Shown here: positions 13,955 through 25,710 of the stretch, piece by piece
Numbering within the stretch: position 1 is the stretch's first letter
Layout of the letters: each line of letters starts with the position of its first letter
Source: Burkholderiaceae bacterium
GTDB taxonomy: Bacteria > Pseudomonadota > Gammaproteobacteria > Burkholderiales > Burkholderiaceae_D
Length of the DNA: 32,258 nt
NCBI GenBank assembly: GCA_022701635.1
Contig: JAKOOD010000016.1
Span: forward strand, 1 to 32,258
Direction: 5' to 3'
Program-made: the position numbers and the translations under genes
Notes under the pieces: model-generated
The model's input: only the letters and a program-made list of their open reading frames with translations
The model's database searches: none
What the model was told of the DNA's origin: nothing

Positions 13955-14856
13955 TCAGCGCCACACCACCCGGTTGCGCCCGGCCTGCTTGGCCCGGTAC
14001 AAGTGATTGTCGGCCGCTTCGAACAGCGCGGCCGCGCTTTCGGCACCGTGCGTTTCGAGCGTCGCGCCGCCCACGCTGACGGTCAGCACCGGCGCCACGG
14101 GCGACGCCGCATGTGTCAGTTGCAGCTCCGCCAGCGCCGCGCACAGGCCGTCGACCACGCCGCGCGCCTCGTCGGCGCCGGTGTCGGGCAGTATCAGCAC
14201 CAATTCCTCGCCGCCGTAGCGCGCCGCCAGGTCGGCCGGACGGCGCATCGTCTTGCGCGCCGCCCGCGCCACGGCGCGCAGCGCCCGGTCGCCGGCCGGG
14301 TGGCCGTAATGGTCGTTGTATTGCTTGAAGGCATCGATGTCGAGCAGGGCGATCGACAGCGGCGTGCCGCTGCGCTGGGCGCGCGCCCATTCCTGGGCAT
14401 ACACCTCGTCGAAGCGGCGCCGGTTGGCCAGTTCGGTCAGGCCGTCGACGTTGGCCAGGCGCTCGAGCATGCGGCGCTGGCGCACCATCTGCAGGTGCAG
14501 CGCCACGCGTGCCATCACCACCGTGGCGTTGAAGGGCTTGGCGATGTAGTCGGCGGCGCCCAGCTTGAGGCCGTTGGCTTCGTCCTCGGGCCGGTCCAGG
14601 CCGGAAATGAAGATCACCGCCAGTTCGGCAGTGGCCGGATCGGCGCGCAGGCGGCGCAGCACGTCGAAGCCGTCCATGTCCGGCATGAGCACGTCCAGCA
14701 GCAGCAGGTCGGGCATGAGGCGGGCGGCGCGTTCCAGCGCCTGTTCGCCGTTCTTCGCCAGCAGCACCGTGTAATCGGGCTTCAGCAATTCCGCCAGCAG
14801 CTGGCGGTTGATCGGATCGTCGTCGCAGATCAGGACTTTCTGGGGTTCGACCGGGT

Positions 14857-14860
<4 letters not shown>
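13955..14860 (-). CDS. Response-regulator diguanylate cyclase (REC-GGDEF)
   Basis: This 301-residue protein would make c-di-GMP from two GTP when its receiver is phosphorylated. The REC domain (about 8-125) has the acidic pocket CDDDP and phospho-acceptor Asp56 in [13 protein letters not shown], plus the KPF lysine. The cyclase domain (about 140-300) has [26 protein letters not shown] and the active loop GGEEL at 216-220. An RxxD inhibitory site (Arg207-Asp210) lies five residues before it, so product feedback is expected. Its ATG overlaps the stop of the upstream hybrid kinase (ATGA), which makes it that kinase's obvious partner through the HPt domain. It is last in the five-gene operon. The layout resembles a short, one-receiver PleD/WspR-like protein. 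Confidence 0.93.
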
Positions 14861-18387
<3,527 letters not shown>

Positions 18388-18392
18388 GGGGG

Positions 18393-19760
18393 TTATCCTT
18401 TGGGAGGGAGGCGGCGTGTGGTGAGGCGCCGTTCGACCGCATTCATCCAGCGCGGTGCGCCCGGATCGCCGTGCCATGCGCGGACCACGCCGTCGACCTG
18501 GTTCAGCAGCGCAGCCGGCAGCTTGAGCGGGCGCGTCTGGTCCATCAGCAGCTTGACGGTGAGGTGGTAGCCGAGGATGCGCGACACCAGGCGCGCCAGC
18601 GAGAAGCCGGGCGAGAACAGGCGCCCGACGCGGTCGATGCCGCGCAGCGCCGCCATCGCCAGCGCGAATGCCAGGCGCGAGGTCCAGGCCACCCGTCCTT
18701 CGAGGCCGAGGTCGCGCGAGGCGGCCTTGCCGCACAAGTAGCGGGTCAGCAGGACGGGGACGGGTTTCAGCAGGCGCAGCGGAATGTACGCCTGCAGGTT
18801 GCCGACCAGGGCCCGGCCGAGTGCCGGGCGCGGATCGTCCGGGCGCACCGCGGCGCGCCCGCGCGCCTGGATCGCCTCGAACATCGCCTGCGCTTCGTCC
18901 ATGGTGTCCGCCATCAGGCCGCGCTCGATGCCCAGCAGGTGGCCGAGCACGTTCCACACGTGCAGGTAGGCTTCCTCGTCGGCGGGCGCCAGGCCGATGC
19001 CGAGCCGGCGCAAGCCTTGCAGGAACACGTAGCCGAAGGTCAGCAGGGTGTAGGCCAGCTCTTCCTGGTTGCAGGGCAGGCCGTGGCGGTCGACGTCCCA
19101 GCCGTGCGCGTACAGCGCCTGCTGCAGGCCGGGACCGCGCGCCGCCAGCGGCGGCACGGCGCGCGCCGGCGCGGCGCCCGGTTCGCCGCGCAGCACCAGG
19201 TGACGGATGGTGGCGTGGATCAGGCGTACCTTGAGGGCCTGCGCCACGCCGCCGCCAGCCGCTCCGGTGAGGCCGCCGCGCATCATGACCGGGAAGATCA
19301 TGGCGGCGGTGGCGCGCACGCGGTAGTCGGTGTGCTGCTCCAGCTGGCCGGCCACGTGCAGCACGGCGGCCAGGTCCGGCACCACGTAGCACTGCGGCAG
19401 GCTGGCGCAGAACAGCAGGGTGCACGAGGTCATGCTCAATTCCATGAACAACTGTTCCGCGCGCGCGATGCGGGCCGGATCGGCCCAGGCGGGCAAGGCG
19501 CACGCCGCCGCCACGTAGCCTTCGAGGGCGGCGGCGGCGTGCGGCGGCAGGTCGGCGCCCGCACGCCAGCCGGCCAGGTCGGCGTTGCTCTGCCAGCGCG
19601 CGATCTCGCGGTTGAGCAGGCCGATGGCGGCCATGTCGGGCCCCTCGCTGGGGGCGTTGTCCGCGCGCGGGCCGAGGATGGCGCCGATGACGCCATCGGC
19701 CAGCGGATCGGCGCGCAGGCCGGGAGGCCCGGCGTCCAGACGGACGGCATCGCGTTTCAA
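18393..19760 (-). CDS. MpaB/rubber-oxygenase (Lcp)-like DUF2236 protein
   Basis: This 455-residue protein belongs to the DUF2236 family, whose known members include latex-clearing protein Lcp (haem oxygenase cleaving polyisoprene) and fungal MpaB (oxidative cleavage of a farnesyl side chain). Family landmarks visible are YRVRAT (Arg147, Thr151), [11 protein letters not shown] (His182, a likely haem ligand by analogy with Lcp, and Arg186), [27 protein letters not shown], and [18 protein letters not shown]. There is no signal peptide, unlike secreted Lcp, so it should act inside the cell or at the inner membrane. The start is probably TTG 19760 behind GAAGG; the first in-frame ATG would lose 42 residues. 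It lies 10 bp after DUF422 and 5 bp before the kinase. The substrate is unknown. Confidence 0.82.
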
Positions 19761-19770
19761 GGTGTCACCT

Positions 19771-20664
19771 TCATGCGGCTTCCTTCAGCGGCGCGGCCGC
19801 CACGGCGCCGGGCTCGCCCGTGGCTGCGCCCAGGGCGGTGGCGACGCTGGCCTCGCGCTGCCAGCGCAGCAGGCCGCAGGCCGCCGCCAGCAGCGGAAAG
19901 CCCATCGCGAACAGCGCGATGGTACGCGTCTCGACCGGGTTGCCGAGACCGACCAGGAACAGCATCAGGCCGCCGTACACGCCCAGCGGCACCAGCGCAT
20001 GGCGCAGCATGACCGGCGCCGCCGGACGCGGCGGCTTGCGGCGCAAGCCGCGCCGGAACACCAGCAGGATCGTGAACGAGACCAGCATCCAGCCGCCGAA
20101 TCCCTGCACGGTCTCGCCGAACCACCAGCCGTCCTTGTCGGTCATGGTCCAGGCCTGGAGCGTGTTGACCATGTAGGGATCGGCGGCCAGGTCGTAGCAG
20201 GTCACGACCATCGCGCCCAGCAGCGACATCAGCAAGTCCTGCCCGAGCGGCGGCGCGCCGGCACTGTCGGAGGGCGCCTGCCAGACGATCAGGTTGGCGA
20301 TCACGTAGGCGACGTAGCACAGCGCGAACCACATCATCGGGATCACCAGCGGCACCTCGCCCAGGCGCGGCCCCAGCACCCCGGTGTAGGCATAGCTGCC
20401 GAAAAACCAGCCGCGGCTGGATCCCAGCTGTTCGGCCGCCCAGCCCAGGACGAGCGCTATCAGGACCAGTCGCCATGCCGCGTGGCCGCCCAGCAGATGC
20501 GCGGCGCTGACCCAGCAGCAGCCGAACATGACCAGCGAGCTCAGTACCAGCAGGACGGTGGTCTCGCCGGCGCCGCGCGTGGCCAGAATGACGAGGAAGG
20601 CGGCCAGCAGCGCGCCCGCGATCATGGGCAGGCTGGCGTACGCACGGGGCATCGGCAAGGTCAT
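19771..20664 (-). CDS. DUF422 carotenoid-biosynthesis-type membrane protein (CruF-like)
   Basis: This 297-residue, very hydrophobic protein has about seven or eight transmembrane helices. It carries the DUF422 pattern EQLGSSRGWFFGSYAYTGVLGPRLGEVPLVIPMMWF, then a loop TCYDLAADPYMV. Characterised relatives hydrate the psi-end groups of C50 or C40 carotenoids (CruF, bisanhydrobacterioruberin hydratase). No phytoene synthase, desaturase or cyclase lies in the window, so a normal carotenoid pathway is not evident. The protein may act on another isoprenoid, or on carotenoid made elsewhere in the genome. The ATG follows a GAGG ribosome site that overlaps the receptor stop (12-bp gap). The next gene, the DUF2236 oxygenase, starts 10 bp after its stop. 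Confidence 0.82.
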   Translation of the reverse strand: MTLPMPRAYASLPMIAGALLAAFLVILATRGAGETTVLLVLSSLVMFGCCWVSAAHLLGGHAAWRLVLIALVLGWAAEQLGSSRGWFFGSYAYTGVLGPRLGEVPLVIPMMWFALCYVAYVIANLIVWQAPSDSAGAPPLGQDLLMSLLGAMVVTCYDLAADPYMVNTLQAWTMTDKDGWWFGETVQGFGGWMLVSFTILLVFRRGLRRKPPRPAAPVMLRHALVPLGVYGGLMLFLVGLGNPVETRTIALFAMGFPLLAAACGLLRWQREASVATALGAATGEPGAVAAAPLKEAA

Positions 20665-20676
20665 GGTGTCAGTGCC

Positions 20677-22959
20677 TCAAAAGCGGTAGTCGAGCCGCAG
20701 CTCGCCGGTGCGCGGATCGCTCGGCACCGTGATGCCGGTCGAGTTGATGGTCAGCGGACGCACCTGGTTTTCGAGATTGCGCACGCGCGCCAGCAGGCTC
20801 CAGCTGGCAGCGAGCGGCTCCCAGCCCAGGCGCAGGTCGGATTCGGTGTGGCCCGGGATGCGGTAGACCAGTCCCTTCGATGGCACGCCCAGGATGTAGG
20901 CGGCGCTGGCGCGGGTGCCGCCACCGAGCACCAGGCTGCCGCCCGGCAGCGCGAAGCGGTGCTCGTAGCCGAGCGCCAGCGTGCGCGCCGGCGCGCGGTC
21001 GAGTTTGGTGCCGGACAGGTCGCGGGTGGCGTCCGGCCGGTAGCTGGTGTAGTGCGCATCGAGCAGGCTCAGGGCATAAGTGACGCGGTCGGCCGCCGTC
21101 ACGCGCACCTGGCCGTCGGCTTCCAGGCCGCGCACCTTGGCTTCGCCGGCGTTGGTGGTTTCATAGCGCGGCTTGCCGTTGACGACTTCCTGCGACGACA
21201 GCTGCAGGTTGCGGTAGTCGTAATGGAACACGGCCAGGTTGAGGCTGGCGCGCTTGTCCCAGAAGCGGGTCTTGAGGCCGGCTTCGAGCGCGCGCAGGGT
21301 TTCGGGCTGGTACACCAGGCTGTGCGCCGGCACCGCGCTGGCGGCCGGGCAGCCGACGCCGGCCAGGCGGCCGCTGCCGACCGCGCCGGCGCTGCAGCCG
21401 TCGTTGAAGCCGCCCGACTTGTAGCCGGTGGCGAGCGAGCCGTAGAGCAGGGTGCCCGGCGCCAGGTCGTAGTCCAGGGCGAGGCGCCAGGTGGTCTTGT
21501 TGCTCGAGATCGCGCCGGCATTCAATTCGCGCGGGTCGGTCGCGGTGTTCAGCGTCGCCGCCTGCTGGTAGCCGATATAGCCGTAACGCGACTTGTCGTC
21601 CTCGGTATAGCGCGCCCCGGCGGTGGCGCGCAGGCGCGGGCTCAAGGCATAGGTCGCCTGGCCGAACACGGCGCGGCTCCAGGCGTCGACTGGATCGTTG
21701 TCGAACACGTAGTAGGGCGTGAGGCCGGCCGCCCTCAGGTCGCGGAAGGTGTAACGGTCGCTGACGTTCTCGTGGAACCAGTACACGCCGCCCTGGGCGC
21801 TGAGCGGCCCCTGGCCGTTGGTGGCGATGCGCAGCTCGTGCGAATCCTGCGTGTAGTCGCCGTGGAAGTTCTGGCGCACGCCCAGCGCGACGCTGGGCGC
21901 CACGCGGTAGAAGTAGTTATACAGGTAGTCGTGCTCGAAATTGCGGTGCGAGCCGAGCCAGCTGAGGGTGGCCGGGCCGAGGTCCCAGCTGACGTCGGCG
22001 CTCAGGCTGGACGAGGTCTTGTGCGAGAATCCCTGGTCCGGCACGTTGTTGGGCGACTTGAAGCGGTTGGTCAGGCGGCGCGCGCCGTCGTCGCTGTTCC
22101 AGACCGGCTTGCCCTGGGCGATGCCGCCATAGAAATTGGTGTCCGCGACCGTGCTGTCGTTGTTGGTATTGTCCAGGCCCGCCTCGTAGCGCACGATCGC
22201 GGTGATGCCGTGGCCCGGCGTGAGCCTGGCCGACAGCCGCGCGGCGCGGTCGTCGCGGTCGAGGCCGGGCCGGTAGCCGGTGCCTTGTCCATTACGCAGA
22301 TAGGGATCGTGGCGGTTGGCAGTGAACGCGGCGCGCAGCGCCAGCACCTCGCTCACCGGCACGTTGACCATGCCGCCCAGCTGGCGCGTGTCGTAGCTGC
22401 CGACCGCGGCATTGACGGCGGCCTCGAAATACGGCACCGGCGCCTTGCTGATCACGTTGACGGCGCCGGCGGTCGTGTTGCGGCCGTACAGCGTGCCCTG
22501 CGGGCCGCGCAGCACTTCGATGCGCTCGACGTCGTAGAACGATGCATTCTGGGCCTGTGGCCGGGCGACGTAGACGCCGTCGACCAGGTAGGCGGCCGAC
22601 GGATCGCCCTTCTCGGTGGCGTCGGCATTCGAGACGCCGCGCATCGTGATGCGCAGGCCGTCGTAGGAATTCTGCAGGTAAGTATTCGGCAGGCGGTCGG
22701 CGATCGCACCCGGGCTGTCGATGCCCTGCTGGTCGAGCTGGGCGGCGGTGAGCACGCTCATCGCCACCGGCGTCCGGGATGCCGGCGCGGCGTTGCGCTG
22801 GGCGGTGACGATGACTTCCGGGAGCGTGGCGTCGGCGCTAGGTTCCTGCCGTGATGGCTGGACCTGCGCGGCGGCATGGAACGGTACGGCGAACGAGGCG
22901 ATGCCGGCAATCGACGCTGCCAGCAGAGTGGGGTTCAGGCGAACCCATTGCTTCTTCAT
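20677..22959 (-). CDS. TonB-dependent receptor heading the oxygenase/kinase operon
   Basis: This 760-residue outer-membrane receptor has a signal peptide (1-31, cleavage at HAAAQ), a TonB box LPEVIVTAQ at 46-54, a plug with DGVYVARPQAQNASFYDVERIEVLRGPQGTLYGRNTTAGAV (two adjoining blocks), and a barrel ending DYRF with the terminal Phe. It belongs to the medium-size receptor type common in sphingomonads, many of which serve hydrophobic or aromatic compounds or siderophores, and is clearly unlike the two carbohydrate receptors earlier in the window. The ATG has a GGGGAAG site. It is the first of five close genes, so the compound it imports may be what DUF422 and DUF2236 act on and what the kinase senses. 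The ligand is unknown. Confidence 0.92.
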   Translation of the reverse strand: MKKQWVRLNPTLLAASIAGIASFAVPFHAAAQVQPSRQEPSADATLPEVIVTAQRNAAPASRTPVAMSVLTAAQLDQQGIDSPGAIADRLPNTYLQNSYDGLRITMRGVSNADATEKGDPSAAYLVDGVYVARPQAQNASFYDVERIEVLRGPQGTLYGRNTTAGAVNVISKAPVPYFEAAVNAAVGSYDTRQLGGMVNVPVSEVLALRAAFTANRHDPYLRNGQGTGYRPGLDRDDRAARLSARLTPGHGITAIVRYEAGLDNTNNDSTVADTNFYGGIAQGKPVWNSDDGARRLTNRFKSPNNVPDQGFSHKTSSSLSADVSWDLGPATLSWLGSHRNFEHDYLYNYFYRVAPSVALGVRQNFHGDYTQDSHELRIATNGQGPLSAQGGVYWFHENVSDRYTFRDLRAAGLTPYYVFDNDPVDAWSRAVFGQATYALSPRLRATAGARYTEDDKSRYGYIGYQQAATLNTATDPRELNAGAISSNKTTWRLALDYDLAPGTLLYGSLATGYKSGGFNDGCSAGAVGSGRLAGVGCPAASAVPAHSLVYQPETLRALEAGLKTRFWDKRASLNLAVFHYDYRNLQLSSQEVVNGKPRYETTNAGEAKVRGLEADGQVRVTAADRVTYALSLLDAHYTSYRPDATRDLSGTKLDRAPARTLALGYEHRFALPGGSLVLGGGTRASAAYILGVPSKGLVYRIPGHTESDLRLGWEPLAASWSLLARVRNLENQVRPLTINSTGITVPSDPRTGELRLDYRF

Positions 22960-23059
22960 GAGACTTCCCCAGCTTTATTATGATGGTTCTCCGGTTCTAT
23001 GCTCAATAAACATTGCGAACCGTCAACGTGAAATTGTGAGAGATTTTATTTCACGCCGA

Positions 23060-23211: not shown

Positions 23212-23766
23212 TTAATCGGCAGAATTGATGAGTGAACTCAACACCATATCTTCCCATTTGCCATCGATGCGCAGGTAGGAGCGCGCATGGCCCTCGCGTT
23301 CGAAGCCGAGCTTGGCCAGCAGTGCGGCACTGCGCAGGTTGCGCGGCAGATGGCTGGCCATGATGCGATGCAAGCCTTGCGATCCGAACATATGCTCGAT
23401 GCCCGCCCTTGCCACTTCGTGCATCAGGCCCTGGCCCTGGCAGGCCGCCGCCACCGAAAAACCGATGTGGCAAGCCTGGAACACGCCGCGCACGATGTTG
23501 GTAAAGGCGCAGGTGGCCACGATGGCGCCGCTGGCGCGGTCGCGTGCGATGAAGTGCAGGGCGCTACCGGCGCGGGCCTCGGCCACCGACTGCGCCAGGC
23601 GCCGCCGTGCGGCCGCCTCGGTGAAATAGTCGGCGCTGCGCGCCGGTTCCCACGGCGCCAGGTGCCCGCGGTTGTGCAGCCGGTAGGCCAGCAGCAGCGG
23701 CGCGTGGTCGGGCGCCGGCACCGTCATCACGGTGCGCGCGGTATCCAGGATCGGCAGCTCGCTCAT
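23212..23766 (-). CDS. rimJ: GNAT acetyltransferase, RimJ-like (ribosomal-protein alanine N-acetyltransferase)
   Basis: This is a 184-residue cytoplasmic acetyl-CoA-dependent N-acetyltransferase. It parallels remembered E. coli RimJ along its length: HLAPWEPARS, TCAFTNIVRGVFQACHIGFSV, the acetyl-CoA loop QGQGLMHE, LHRIMASHLPRNLRSAALLAKLGFEREG, and SYLRIDGKWEDMVLSSL. RimJ acetylates the N-terminus of ribosomal protein S5; that exact role here is inferred from similarity. Start ATG 23766 (MSELPILD) was chosen. A GTG 27 bp further upstream would add MRQLRYNRR, and neither start has a clear ribosome site. TACAAT at 23779-23774 on this strand could be a -10 element, which would favour ATG 23766 with a very short leader. 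It is divergent from the glycosyltransferase. Confidence 0.85.
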   Translation of the reverse strand: MSELPILDTARTVMTVPAPDHAPLLLAYRLHNRGHLAPWEPARSADYFTEAAARRRLAQSVAEARAGSALHFIARDRASGAIVATCAFTNIVRGVFQACHIGFSVAAACQGQGLMHEVARAGIEHMFGSQGLHRIMASHLPRNLRSAALLAKLGFEREGHARSYLRIDGKWEDMVLSSLINSAD

Positions 23767-23865
23767 GCGGCGATTGTAGCGGAGCTGGCGCACGACTGAT
23801 ACCGCGCAAACCCTGGGCGGCAGCGCTGTCTATGCTGGCTGCATGTTCAACCGGCAGGAGCTTCC

Positions 23866-25710
23866 ATGCCCCAGGCGCCCGCGGTCAGCGTGCTGATGCC
23901 CAGCTTCGAGCAGGCGGCCTTTATCGGCCGCGCGCTGGCCAGCCTGCAGGGCCAGACCCTGCGCAATTGGGAGGCGATGGTCGTCGACGACGGCTCCGAG
24001 GACGGCACCGCCGGGGCCGTGGCGCCTTTCCTGGCCGATCCGCGCATCCGCAGCGTCCGGCTGGAGCGCAACGAGGGCCTGGGCCGCGCACTGAACACCG
24101 CGCTGGACCGGACGGCCGCGCCGCTGGTGGCCTACCTCCCCAGCGACGACGTGTTCTACCCGCGCCATCTCGAACTGCTCGTCGGCGCGCTGGACGCAAC
24201 CCCGCAGGCGGTGCTGGCCTTTGCCGGCCTGCGCCATCACTACAACCGCTGGCATCCGGGCCAGCTGCCGGACACGCCCCTGCAGCTGGTGCAGGTGATG
24301 CACCGCCGCAGCGGCCTGCGCTGGCTCGAACGGGCAAGCCTCGAATCGGACGACCTCGAGCGCCTGTACTGGGGACGCCTGCGTGCCGCGGGCGGCTTCG
24401 TCGGCACCGGCGAGCCGAGTTGCGAGTGGGTCGACCATCCCGGGCAGCGCCACAAGCGCATGCAGGAGCCGGTGGGCGGCATCAATCCGTTCCGCCAGCA
24501 TTACCGCGTGACGGCGCCGCTGCGCTTTCACACCACAGCCGGCAACGCGATCGACGAGGACACCCTGTACCGCCGCCTGCGCGAACGCCCGCCGACGCCG
24601 CGCGCCGCCGACGGCTTGCGCATCCTGCTGGTGGGCGAACTCGCCTACAACGCCGAGCGCGTGCTGGCGCTGGAAGAGCAGGGCCATGCCCTGTACGGCC
24701 TGTGGACCGACACCCCTTACTGGTTCAATACGGTCGGCCCGCTGCCCTTCGGCCACGTGACCGAGCTGCCGCGCACGGACTGGCGCGCGGCCGTCCGCGC
24801 ACTCCGTCCCGACCTCATCTACGGCCAGCTGAACTGGCAGGCCGTGCCCTTCGTGCATGCGGTGATGCTGGCCACGCCCGGTATTCCCTTCGTCTGGCAT
24901 TTCAAGGAAGGCCCCTTCATCTGCATCGACAAGGGCAGCTGGCCCGAGCTGCTGGACCTGTACCGTCGTGCCGACGGGCGCATCTTCGGCAGTCCGGAAA
25001 CGCGCGACTGGTTCGACCTGGCGTCGCCCGGCCTGGCGACGTCGAAGCCGGCCATGGTGCTCGACGGCGACCTGCCCAAGCGCGACTGGTTCGATGCACC
25101 GCGCAGCAGCCTGCTGGCCGCGCGCGACGGCGGCCTGCACACGGTGGTGCCGGGACGGCCGATCGGGTTGCATCCGACCACGGTGGCGGCACTGGCGGCG
25201 CAGGACATCCACCTGCATTTCTATGGCGACTTTACCCACGGCCAGTGGAAGGAATGGATCGCCAAGGCGCGCGGCCTGGCGCCGCAACACCTGCACCTGC
25301 ATGCCAATGTCGCGCAGGACCGCTGGGTCGACGCGTTCTCGCGCTACGATGCCGGCTGGCTGCACTGCTTCACCAGCCACAATGGCGGCGATTTGCGTCT
25401 GGCCGACTGGGACGACCTGAATTATCCGGCGCGACTCGCGACGCTGGCGATGGCGGGGCTGCCGATGATCCAGCGCGACAATCGCGGGGCGGTGGTGGCC
25501 GCGCAGACGCTGGCGCGCGAACTCGGCATCGGCATCTTTTACGACGATATCGACGGCCTGGCCGCGCAATTGCGCGACGCCGCGCGCATGCGCGGGGTGC
25601 GCCAGCGCGTGTGGCAGGAGCGCGAGCGCTTCAGCTTCGACAGCCACGTGCCGGCGCTGCTCGGCTTCTTCCGGCGGGTGATCGCCGAAGGCGGCCACAC
25701 CCGCGCATGA
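23866..25710 (+). CDS. Two-domain glycosyltransferase (GT2 plus GT-B-like domain)
   Basis: This 614-residue cytoplasmic protein has no signal peptide. Residues 5-~120 are a GT2 (GT-A) domain: VSVLMPSFEQAAFIGRALASLQGQT, VVDDGSEDGT, and YLPSDDVFYPRH with the SDD metal/nucleotide site. After about residue 245 a second module begins with LRILLVGELAYNAERVLALEEQG. It carries GT-B features, including HFKEGPFICIDKG, a FGSPETRDW segment and a YPARLATLAMAGLPMIQR tail like group-1 transferases. Such fused enzymes usually add two sugars in succession to O-antigen, capsule or exopolysaccharide. The ATG has an AGGAG site. The gene stands alone, with no other polysaccharide genes nearby, so its product cannot be named. 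Confidence 0.8.
   Translation: MPQAPAVSVLMPSFEQAAFIGRALASLQGQTLRNWEAMVVDDGSEDGTAGAVAPFLADPRIRSVRLERNEGLGRALNTALDRTAAPLVAYLPSDDVFYPRHLELLVGALDATPQAVLAFAGLRHHYNRWHPGQLPDTPLQLVQVMHRRSGLRWLERASLESDDLERLYWGRLRAAGGFVGTGEPSCEWVDHPGQRHKRMQEPVGGINPFRQHYRVTAPLRFHTTAGNAIDEDTLYRRLRERPPTPRAADGLRILLVGELAYNAERVLALEEQGHALYGLWTDTPYWFNTVGPLPFGHVTELPRTDWRAAVRALRPDLIYGQLNWQAVPFVHAVMLATPGIPFVWHFKEGPFICIDKGSWPELLDLYRRADGRIFGSPETRDWFDLASPGLATSKPAMVLDGDLPKRDWFDAPRSSLLAARDGGLHTVVPGRPIGLHPTTVAALAAQDIHLHFYGDFTHGQWKEWIAKARGLAPQHLHLHANVAQDRWVDAFSRYDAGWLHCFTSHNGGDLRLADWDDLNYPARLATLAMAGLPMIQRDNRGAVVAAQTLARELGIGIFYDDIDGLAAQLRDAARMRGVRQRVWQERERFSFDSHVPALLGFFRRVIAEGGHTRA

Follow-up and report, generated by a model that had tools for sequence, protein, structure and literature searches.

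SagS, LadS and RetS of Pseudomonas aeruginosa are 7TMR-DISM hybrid kinases with the domain layout DISMED2-7TM-HisKA-HATPase-REC, and RpfF/RpfC/RpfG make up a diffusible-signal system of synthase, sensor and c-di-GMP. SagS has been linked to c-di-GMP in the available part of PMC8544897. For the rubber oxygenase LcpK30, the accessible portion of PMC5522427 describes His198 as the haem ligand and Arg164 and Thr168 as required for activity, Lys167, conserved in 59% of Lcps, as a distal ligand, and the base Glu148 as helpful; the roles of the Arg164, Thr168 and His198 equivalents in Lcps are given also in an excerpt of PMC6311187. A literature search, which ran mostly outside the subscription journals, returned no paper that covers DUF2236 together with 7TMR-DISM.

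The stretch of DNA analysed here, referred to as the window, is the entire 32,258-nt contig C135, which belongs to a draft genome of 5.48 Mb and 87.8% completeness; the titled relatives closest to it point to a position near Massilia. Its minus strand carries five ORFs in nearly gapless succession, encoding a TonB receptor, a DUF422 protein, a DUF2236 protein, a 7TMR-DISM hybrid kinase and a REC-GGDEF protein (Table 1). Families were searched for seven proteins of the window, between 13955 and 25710, and a Pfam family was assigned to all five ORFs of the set. The sequence-only reading of this DNA had described DUF422 and DUF2236 as neighbours, and they do lie side by side on the same strand with 10 nt between them.

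Table 1. The five-gene set of the window and its upstream region
Feature	Position	Strand	Remarks
TonB-dependent outer-membrane receptor	20677..22959	-	760 aa; 12 nt upstream of DUF422; Pfam
DUF422 / PF04240 membrane protein, CruF-like family	19771..20664	-	297 aa; Pfam, tree, AF2 model
DUF2236 (PF09995) haem oxygenase-like protein	18393..19760	-	455 aa; TTG start at 19760; 10 nt after DUF422
7TMR-DISM sensor hybrid kinase	14857..18387	-	1176 aa; starts 5 nt after DUF2236 stop
REC-GGDEF response regulator	13955..14860	-	301 aa; start overlaps kinase stop by 4 nt
Weak sigma-70-like site	22977..23006	-	just upstream of TonB receptor start

Pfam resolves the kinase into DISMED2, 7TM, HisKA, HATPase, REC, REC and Hpt, in that order, with 86.9 bits for PF07695 (cut-off 29) and 61.6 bits for PF07696 (cut-off 22); the listed ORF at 14857-19503 is an overlong reading of the same frame. 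The GGDEF motif of the response regulator reads GGEEL, and its activity as a cyclase is not assured. The sigma-70-like site above the TonB receptor, one found against 0.6 expected, is suggestive at most. Upstream of the operon lie a GNAT acetyltransferase (23212-23793) and a GT2 glycosyltransferase (23866-25710), each of which is present in a minority of Massilia-group loci.

The DUF2236 protein and its haem site

The window DUF2236 protein matches PF09995 with 63.2 bits against a cut-off of 23. When it was compared by phmmer with solved structures (E up to 1), LcpK30 was the only match (5o1m, E 3.5e-12; 5o1l, E 9.6e-12), and in this alignment Arg147, Thr151, His182 and Arg186, the residues that the sequence-only reading held to be kept, fall on LcpK30 Arg164, Thr168, His198 and Arg202. 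Related proteins were taken from a comparison set of 80 titled loci (15 named genera plus MAGs), searched with profiles built in this analysis. R147, T151, R179, H182 and R186 are invariant in all 48 rows of an alignment of the window with 47 of these loci, and in all 21 rows of a second alignment, five rows of which are distant homologues (25-33% identity). By sequence alignment only, the place of LcpK30 Lys167 is held in the 48 rows by S (31), A (9), Q (5), H, T and M (1 each), and that of Glu148 by D (41), Q (3), N (2), E and W (1 each).

The AF2 model of DUF2236, built without haem, has a mean pLDDT of 90.4 and a pTM of 0.91. It superimposes on LcpK30 with Z 29.9 and rmsd 3.3 over 336 residues (Foldseek E 5.4e-10), the haem-pocket fold on which the earlier reading depended; its second fold match is t-anethole oxygenase 8s1j (Z 18.3 over 255 residues). 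The lack of an Lcp-type export signal, likewise claimed before, agrees with a Kyte-Doolittle scan, the one method applied, which found no hydrophobic segment in the 455 residues. Since the predicted fold is LcpK30-like and the haem-site residues are invariant, DUF2236 is likely a haem enzyme. Rubber as its substrate is not implied by these alignments and the model. DUF2236 proteins also occur on plasmids, in 10 distant records, of which the one inspected carried no annotation.

The sensor gene beside DUF2236

The most constant partner of DUF2236 is the downstream 7TMR-DISM sensor, which the sequence-only reading did not mention. In 73 of the 80 titled loci it comes directly after DUF2236 on the same strand, no more than 450 nt away; DUF422 lies directly upstream in 60 and both neighbours are present in 57, counts that are not independent, as the loci are related to one another. 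Four of the 60 loci (L056, L057, L058 and L084) encode DUF422 and DUF2236 as a single ORF, confirmed by Pfam, and adjacency and fusion alike bear out the proposal of an enzyme pair. In L064 and L103 the contig ends within the locus, and a missing DUF422 is uninformative there. A candidate correlation between DUF2236 and sensor distances (r 0.80 over 72 loci) was uncorrected for species descent and was set aside.

Seven loci have no such sensor beside DUF2236 (L063, L088, L090, L091, L094, L098 and L101). One of these, L091, has a convergent hybrid kinase that gives no Pfam 7TM match, and no signalling neighbour was identified beside DUF2236 in L088 and L090. Three others encode, in convergent orientation, a protein that has domains of the class III nucleotide cyclase and AAA types (L094:10241-14326, L098:10123-14214 and L101:11393-15523).

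Of 399 genomes searched in the order, 14, the source genome among them, gave a DUF2236 match of the window clade (over 300 bits, best 3 to 7 candidates per genome scored). The sensor is adjacent in 11 of them; the neighbourhood of DUF2236 holds no sensor in G254, G416 and G521, the first two of which may be among the seven sensor-less titled loci. In nine positive genomes, picked after adjacency was known, the DUF2236 neighbour is the sole PF07695 gene in six; besides this neighbour, G000 and G018 each have one other PF07695 gene and G343 has five. PF07695 itself exceeds its cut-off in 11 of 25 DUF2236-negative genomes of the same families. Among these 25, the clade-type sensor was found only in G079 and G126 (518 and 510 bits on a profile built in this analysis), G032 and G063 scoring 135-146 bits. 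Adjacency in 11 of 14 positives versus presence in 2 of 21 negatives of the clade's families gives a Fisher p of 5e-5 with relatedness ignored.

Both G079 and G126 keep the sensor, and no DUF2236 match was found in either genome or in the 18.5 kb around the sensor. Such enzyme-less sensors would either be pure receivers or have a ligand unrelated to DUF2236. In G126 (L189:5422-12608) a TonB receptor, 54% identical to that of the window, a 7TMR-DISM hybrid kinase and REC-GGDEF stand together, the operon minus both enzymes; the sensor kinase of G079 likewise lacks DUF422 and DUF2236 beside it.

Several loci show further arrangements. At L062:7604-20857, TonB, DUF2236, kinase and REC-GGDEF are followed by a 153-aa ORF and by a second kinase and REC-GGDEF; the short ORF resembles part of DUF422 (62 bits on our own profile, no Pfam match), and the arrangement suggests a tandem duplication that left a remnant of DUF422. 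In the Acidovorax-type loci L067, L069, L072, L079 and L108, DUF2236 is followed by three 7TMR-DISM sensor genes in tandem. DUF422, DUF2236 and the sensor also occur, at 56% identity, on a contig labelled uncultured Acidobacteria bacterium (L093), probably through either horizontal transfer or a binning error.

For the 73 adjacent sensors, a profile built in this analysis placed GGDEF in the sensor ORF in 35 and in a following gene in 33. A partial Pfam GGDEF was detected in four of the remaining five (L084, L092, L104 and L106; the fifth, L107, lay outside the Pfam search), and these four domains may be inactive. The predicted output of the set is c-di-GMP. Among 109 sensor rows, no position conserved in 95% is a lysine, and the idea of a retinal-type photoreceptor found no support.

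Membrane enzymes that adjoin DUF2236

The DUF422 protein of the window matches PF04240 with 102.4 bits (cut-off 25) and stays under every CruF equivalog cut-off: 64.2 vs 400 bits for NF045693, 61.8 vs 154.7 for TIGR03460 and 45.5 vs 300 for NF041333. All 22 operon rows group as a single clade (99/98) in a 33-row tree. A Deinococcus row from a carotenoid context is the sister of this clade with weak support (95/72), which leans towards the earlier view of DUF422 as a relative of carotenoid enzymes; this row and the only other carotenoid-context CruF row sit on very long branches, about which the tree program warns. The AF2 model is helical (pLDDT 90.1) and a fold search with it returned weak matches only, the best being an Insig homologue (Z 7.8 over 143 residues).

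Scoring the best 3 to 7 candidates per genome, we found PF04240 over its cut-off in 10 of the 399 order genomes, four of which are among the 14 with the DUF2236 clade. DUF422 is dispensable to DUF2236, since PF04240 was not found in the other 10 of these 14. Relatives of DUF422 also occur on plasmids from Vibrio, Bradyrhizobium and Legionella lytica; for the stretches viewed around them the gene table, which is incomplete, lists neither DUF2236 nor 7TMR-DISM.

Eight distant DUF2236 proteins were found, six as weak matches in the order search and two more (G694 and G689) in 175 genomes of the class. In G433, G512 and G241, at 30-33% identity, a divergent DISMED2-7TM-HisKA-HATPase-REC kinase (Pfam) adjoins DUF2236 in all three, in a different orientation from that of the window clade. 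Directly after DUF2236, all three also encode a Pyr4-like transmembrane terpene cyclase (PF25129; 80.8, 74.1 and 73.3 bits). The substrates of Pyr4-like cyclases are, according to the available part of PMC13307353, prenyl chains of meroterpenoids and triterpenoids. Beside the distant DUF2236 gene of G415 are a REC-GGDEF gene, convergent with it, and a gene for a giant hybrid kinase. No 7TMR-DISM neighbour was seen in G449, in G689, where a molybdopterin oxidoreductase precedes DUF2236, or in G334, where the gene is near a contig end; in G694 a TonB receptor takes the neighbouring place. Homology between DUF422 and the Pyr4-like cyclase was considered and is unsupported (an hhalign comparison, one side of which was a single sequence, gave a probability of 0.2%).

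Taken together, these results show that the place of DUF2236, with its haem-site residues, beside a 7TMR-DISM membrane sensor has long been conserved; in most titled loci DUF2236 also adjoins a membrane isoprenoid-type enzyme, DUF422 or, in a distant lineage, a Pyr4-like cyclase. An isoprenoid substrate is to be expected mainly because two unlike isoprenoid-type membrane enzymes occupy the DUF422 slot.

A possible isoprenoid-derived signal and its alternatives

The reading that we tentatively favour, plausible and still short of probable, is that DUF2236 and the membrane isoprenoid-type enzyme make or adjust an isoprenoid-derived ligand for the c-di-GMP sensor; its chemistry, substrate and ligand are what we infer. 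DUF2236 would cut an isoprenoid lipid, such as squalene or another polyprenoid (a carotenoid being possible in the source genome), oxidatively at a C=C bond, and the membrane enzyme would hydrate or cyclise the substrate before or along with this cleavage. The sensor could then read either the cleavage product or the loss of its precursor and would signal through the REC-GGDEF protein to change c-di-GMP. In the Massilia group, the TonB receptor may import the ligand. The overall layout would resemble that of RpfF/RpfC/RpfG, operating on isoprenoid chemistry. Binding of a terpene at DISMED2 is disfavoured, since this domain is predicted to sense carbohydrates in the part of PMC8846402 available. 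The favoured reading is further weakened by the 7 of 80 titled loci and 3 of 14 order genomes in which DUF2236 has no adjacent sensor, by the distant DUF2236 genes that lack a 7TMR-DISM neighbour, by the change at the aligned place of Lys167, and by G079 and G126, whose sensors occur without the enzyme.

It is possible as well, if doubtful, that the set represents an undescribed class of bacterial signalling, in which DUF2236 and a membrane hydratase or terpene cyclase yield a hormone-like ligand of terpene origin, recognised by a dedicated 7TMR-DISM receptor that controls c-di-GMP. The apocarotenoid hormones of plants are similar in outline to such a signal. On this terpene-hormone reading G126, with its TonB receptor, sensor and REC-GGDEF and without the enzymes, would be a listener.

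The haem could instead serve sensing, DUF2236 being no enzyme but a haem-based O2 or redox sensor whose target is the 7TMR-DISM kinase or cyclase next to it, on the model of H-NOX proteins, which act on partner kinases. We consider this unlikely. It would fit the invariance of the haem-site residues and the greater constancy of the sensor beside a dispensable DUF422, and the accessible part of PMC5522427 likens the globin fold of LcpK30 to globin-coupled sensors. However, the equivalents of Arg164 and Thr168, for which the same source reports a catalytic need in LcpK30, are invariant here too, and pairing or fusion with two kinds of isoprenoid-type membrane enzyme would be hard to account for if DUF2236 only sensed gas.

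Equally improbable in our judgement is a catabolic or clearance module, in which a terpenoid from the environment enters through the TonB receptor and is degraded by DUF422 and DUF2236, while the sensor reports its presence. The receptor gene is the immediate upstream neighbour in the window, a homologue occupies the same place in Massilia-group loci, and a TonB receptor also comes after the distant DUF2236 of G694. Yet no homologue of the window receptor was found in the retrieved flanks of Acidovorax, Undibacterium and Variovorax loci, the flanking genes vary among loci (MutS, IleRS, LspA, hydrolases) with no constant catabolic set, and the linked output is c-di-GMP.

The favoured proposal, of a ligand made for the sensor, must also be set against carotenoid tailoring, in which DUF422 and DUF2236 turn the cell's own carotenoids into apocarotenoids. 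The sequence-only reading had the pair standing without carotenoid genes; this holds among the seven searched proteins of the window, the PF04240 protein aside, but not for the genome, where contig C566 carries crtB, crtY and crtI (CrtB 505 bits, cut-off 480; CrtY 475, cut-off 215; CrtI 748, cut-off 238). Beside them lie polyprenyl-synthase-like and glycosyltransferase-like genes, for which even the highest NCBIfam scores stay below the cut-offs. A binning error is unlikely, because 8 kb of C566 aligns at 83% identity with a congeneric genome assembled into 3 contigs. An ORF that resembles metH by eye also adjoins the crt genes (L028), and HpnC is encoded on another contig of the source genome, C156.

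Scoring the best 3 to 7 candidates per genome, we found CrtI over its cut-off in 6 of the 14 DUF2236-clade genomes (the source among the 14) and in 62 of the 385 others (Fisher p 0.019, relatedness ignored). This enrichment and the crt genes of the source speak for tailoring. Against it, CrtI over the cut-off was not found in the remaining 8 of the 14, including G085 and G011, which keep DUF422. The CrtI and PF04240 counts across the order thus indicate that the gene set can exist without carotenoids, though some CrtI enrichment remains, and DUF2236 without DUF422; carotenoid dependence as a general rule is not borne out, and we regard carotenoid tailoring as quite unlikely. Squalene was likewise considered as a specific substrate by co-occurrence. 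At least two SQS_PSY matches were present in all 48 DUF2236-positive genomes searched (of 80), but with at least one match at E 1e-30 in 352 of the 399 order genomes (best 3 to 7 candidates per genome) the family is near universal in the order and does not discriminate.

The hydration-then-cleavage route for a membrane isoprenoid proposed by the earlier reading, with the sensor genes incidental, draws on the adjacency and fusion of DUF422 and DUF2236 but is very improbable, given that the sensor is more constant than DUF422 (73 vs 60 of 80 loci) and recurs beside distant DUF2236 proteins in another orientation.

The gene linkage ties an orphan Gram-negative branch of rubber-oxygenase relatives to a class of membrane receptors, few of which have a known ligand, and the favoured reading names a testable chemical class for that ligand. 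If this reading is true, a bacterial isoprenoid-cleavage signal feeds c-di-GMP. Even with the chemistry wrong, the conserved partner points DUF2236 here to signalling and away from rubber degradation.

Compared with LcpK30, the window DUF2236 protein shares the PF09995 family, the fold and the Arg, Thr and His residues of the haem site, but is only about 20% identical, has no export signal that we could see and, by sequence alignment, has another residue at the place of the distal lysine; in its clade the aligned place of Glu148 is mostly Asp, and it adjoins a sensor. To t-anethole oxygenase of Stenotrophomonas maltophilia (8s1j), by its name an alkene oxygenase of a Gram-negative, the likeness is one of fold, at 13% identity. 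CruF, the carotenoid 1',2'-hydratase, has the family PF04240 in common with DUF422, whereas the operon DUF422 rows form a clade of their own and are not inside a carotenoid cluster.

SagS, LadS and RetS resemble the window sensor in domain layout and in the link to c-di-GMP; in contrast to them, the window kinase has a second REC and an Hpt domain and is co-encoded with a haem oxygenase-like protein. With the Rpf system the likeness is one of gene layout only, a putative enzyme, a hybrid kinase with REC and Hpt, and a c-di-GMP response regulator in one cluster. The enzymes and the sensor domain are unrelated, the signal of the window set is putative, and where Rpf has HD-GYP the window set has GGDEF.
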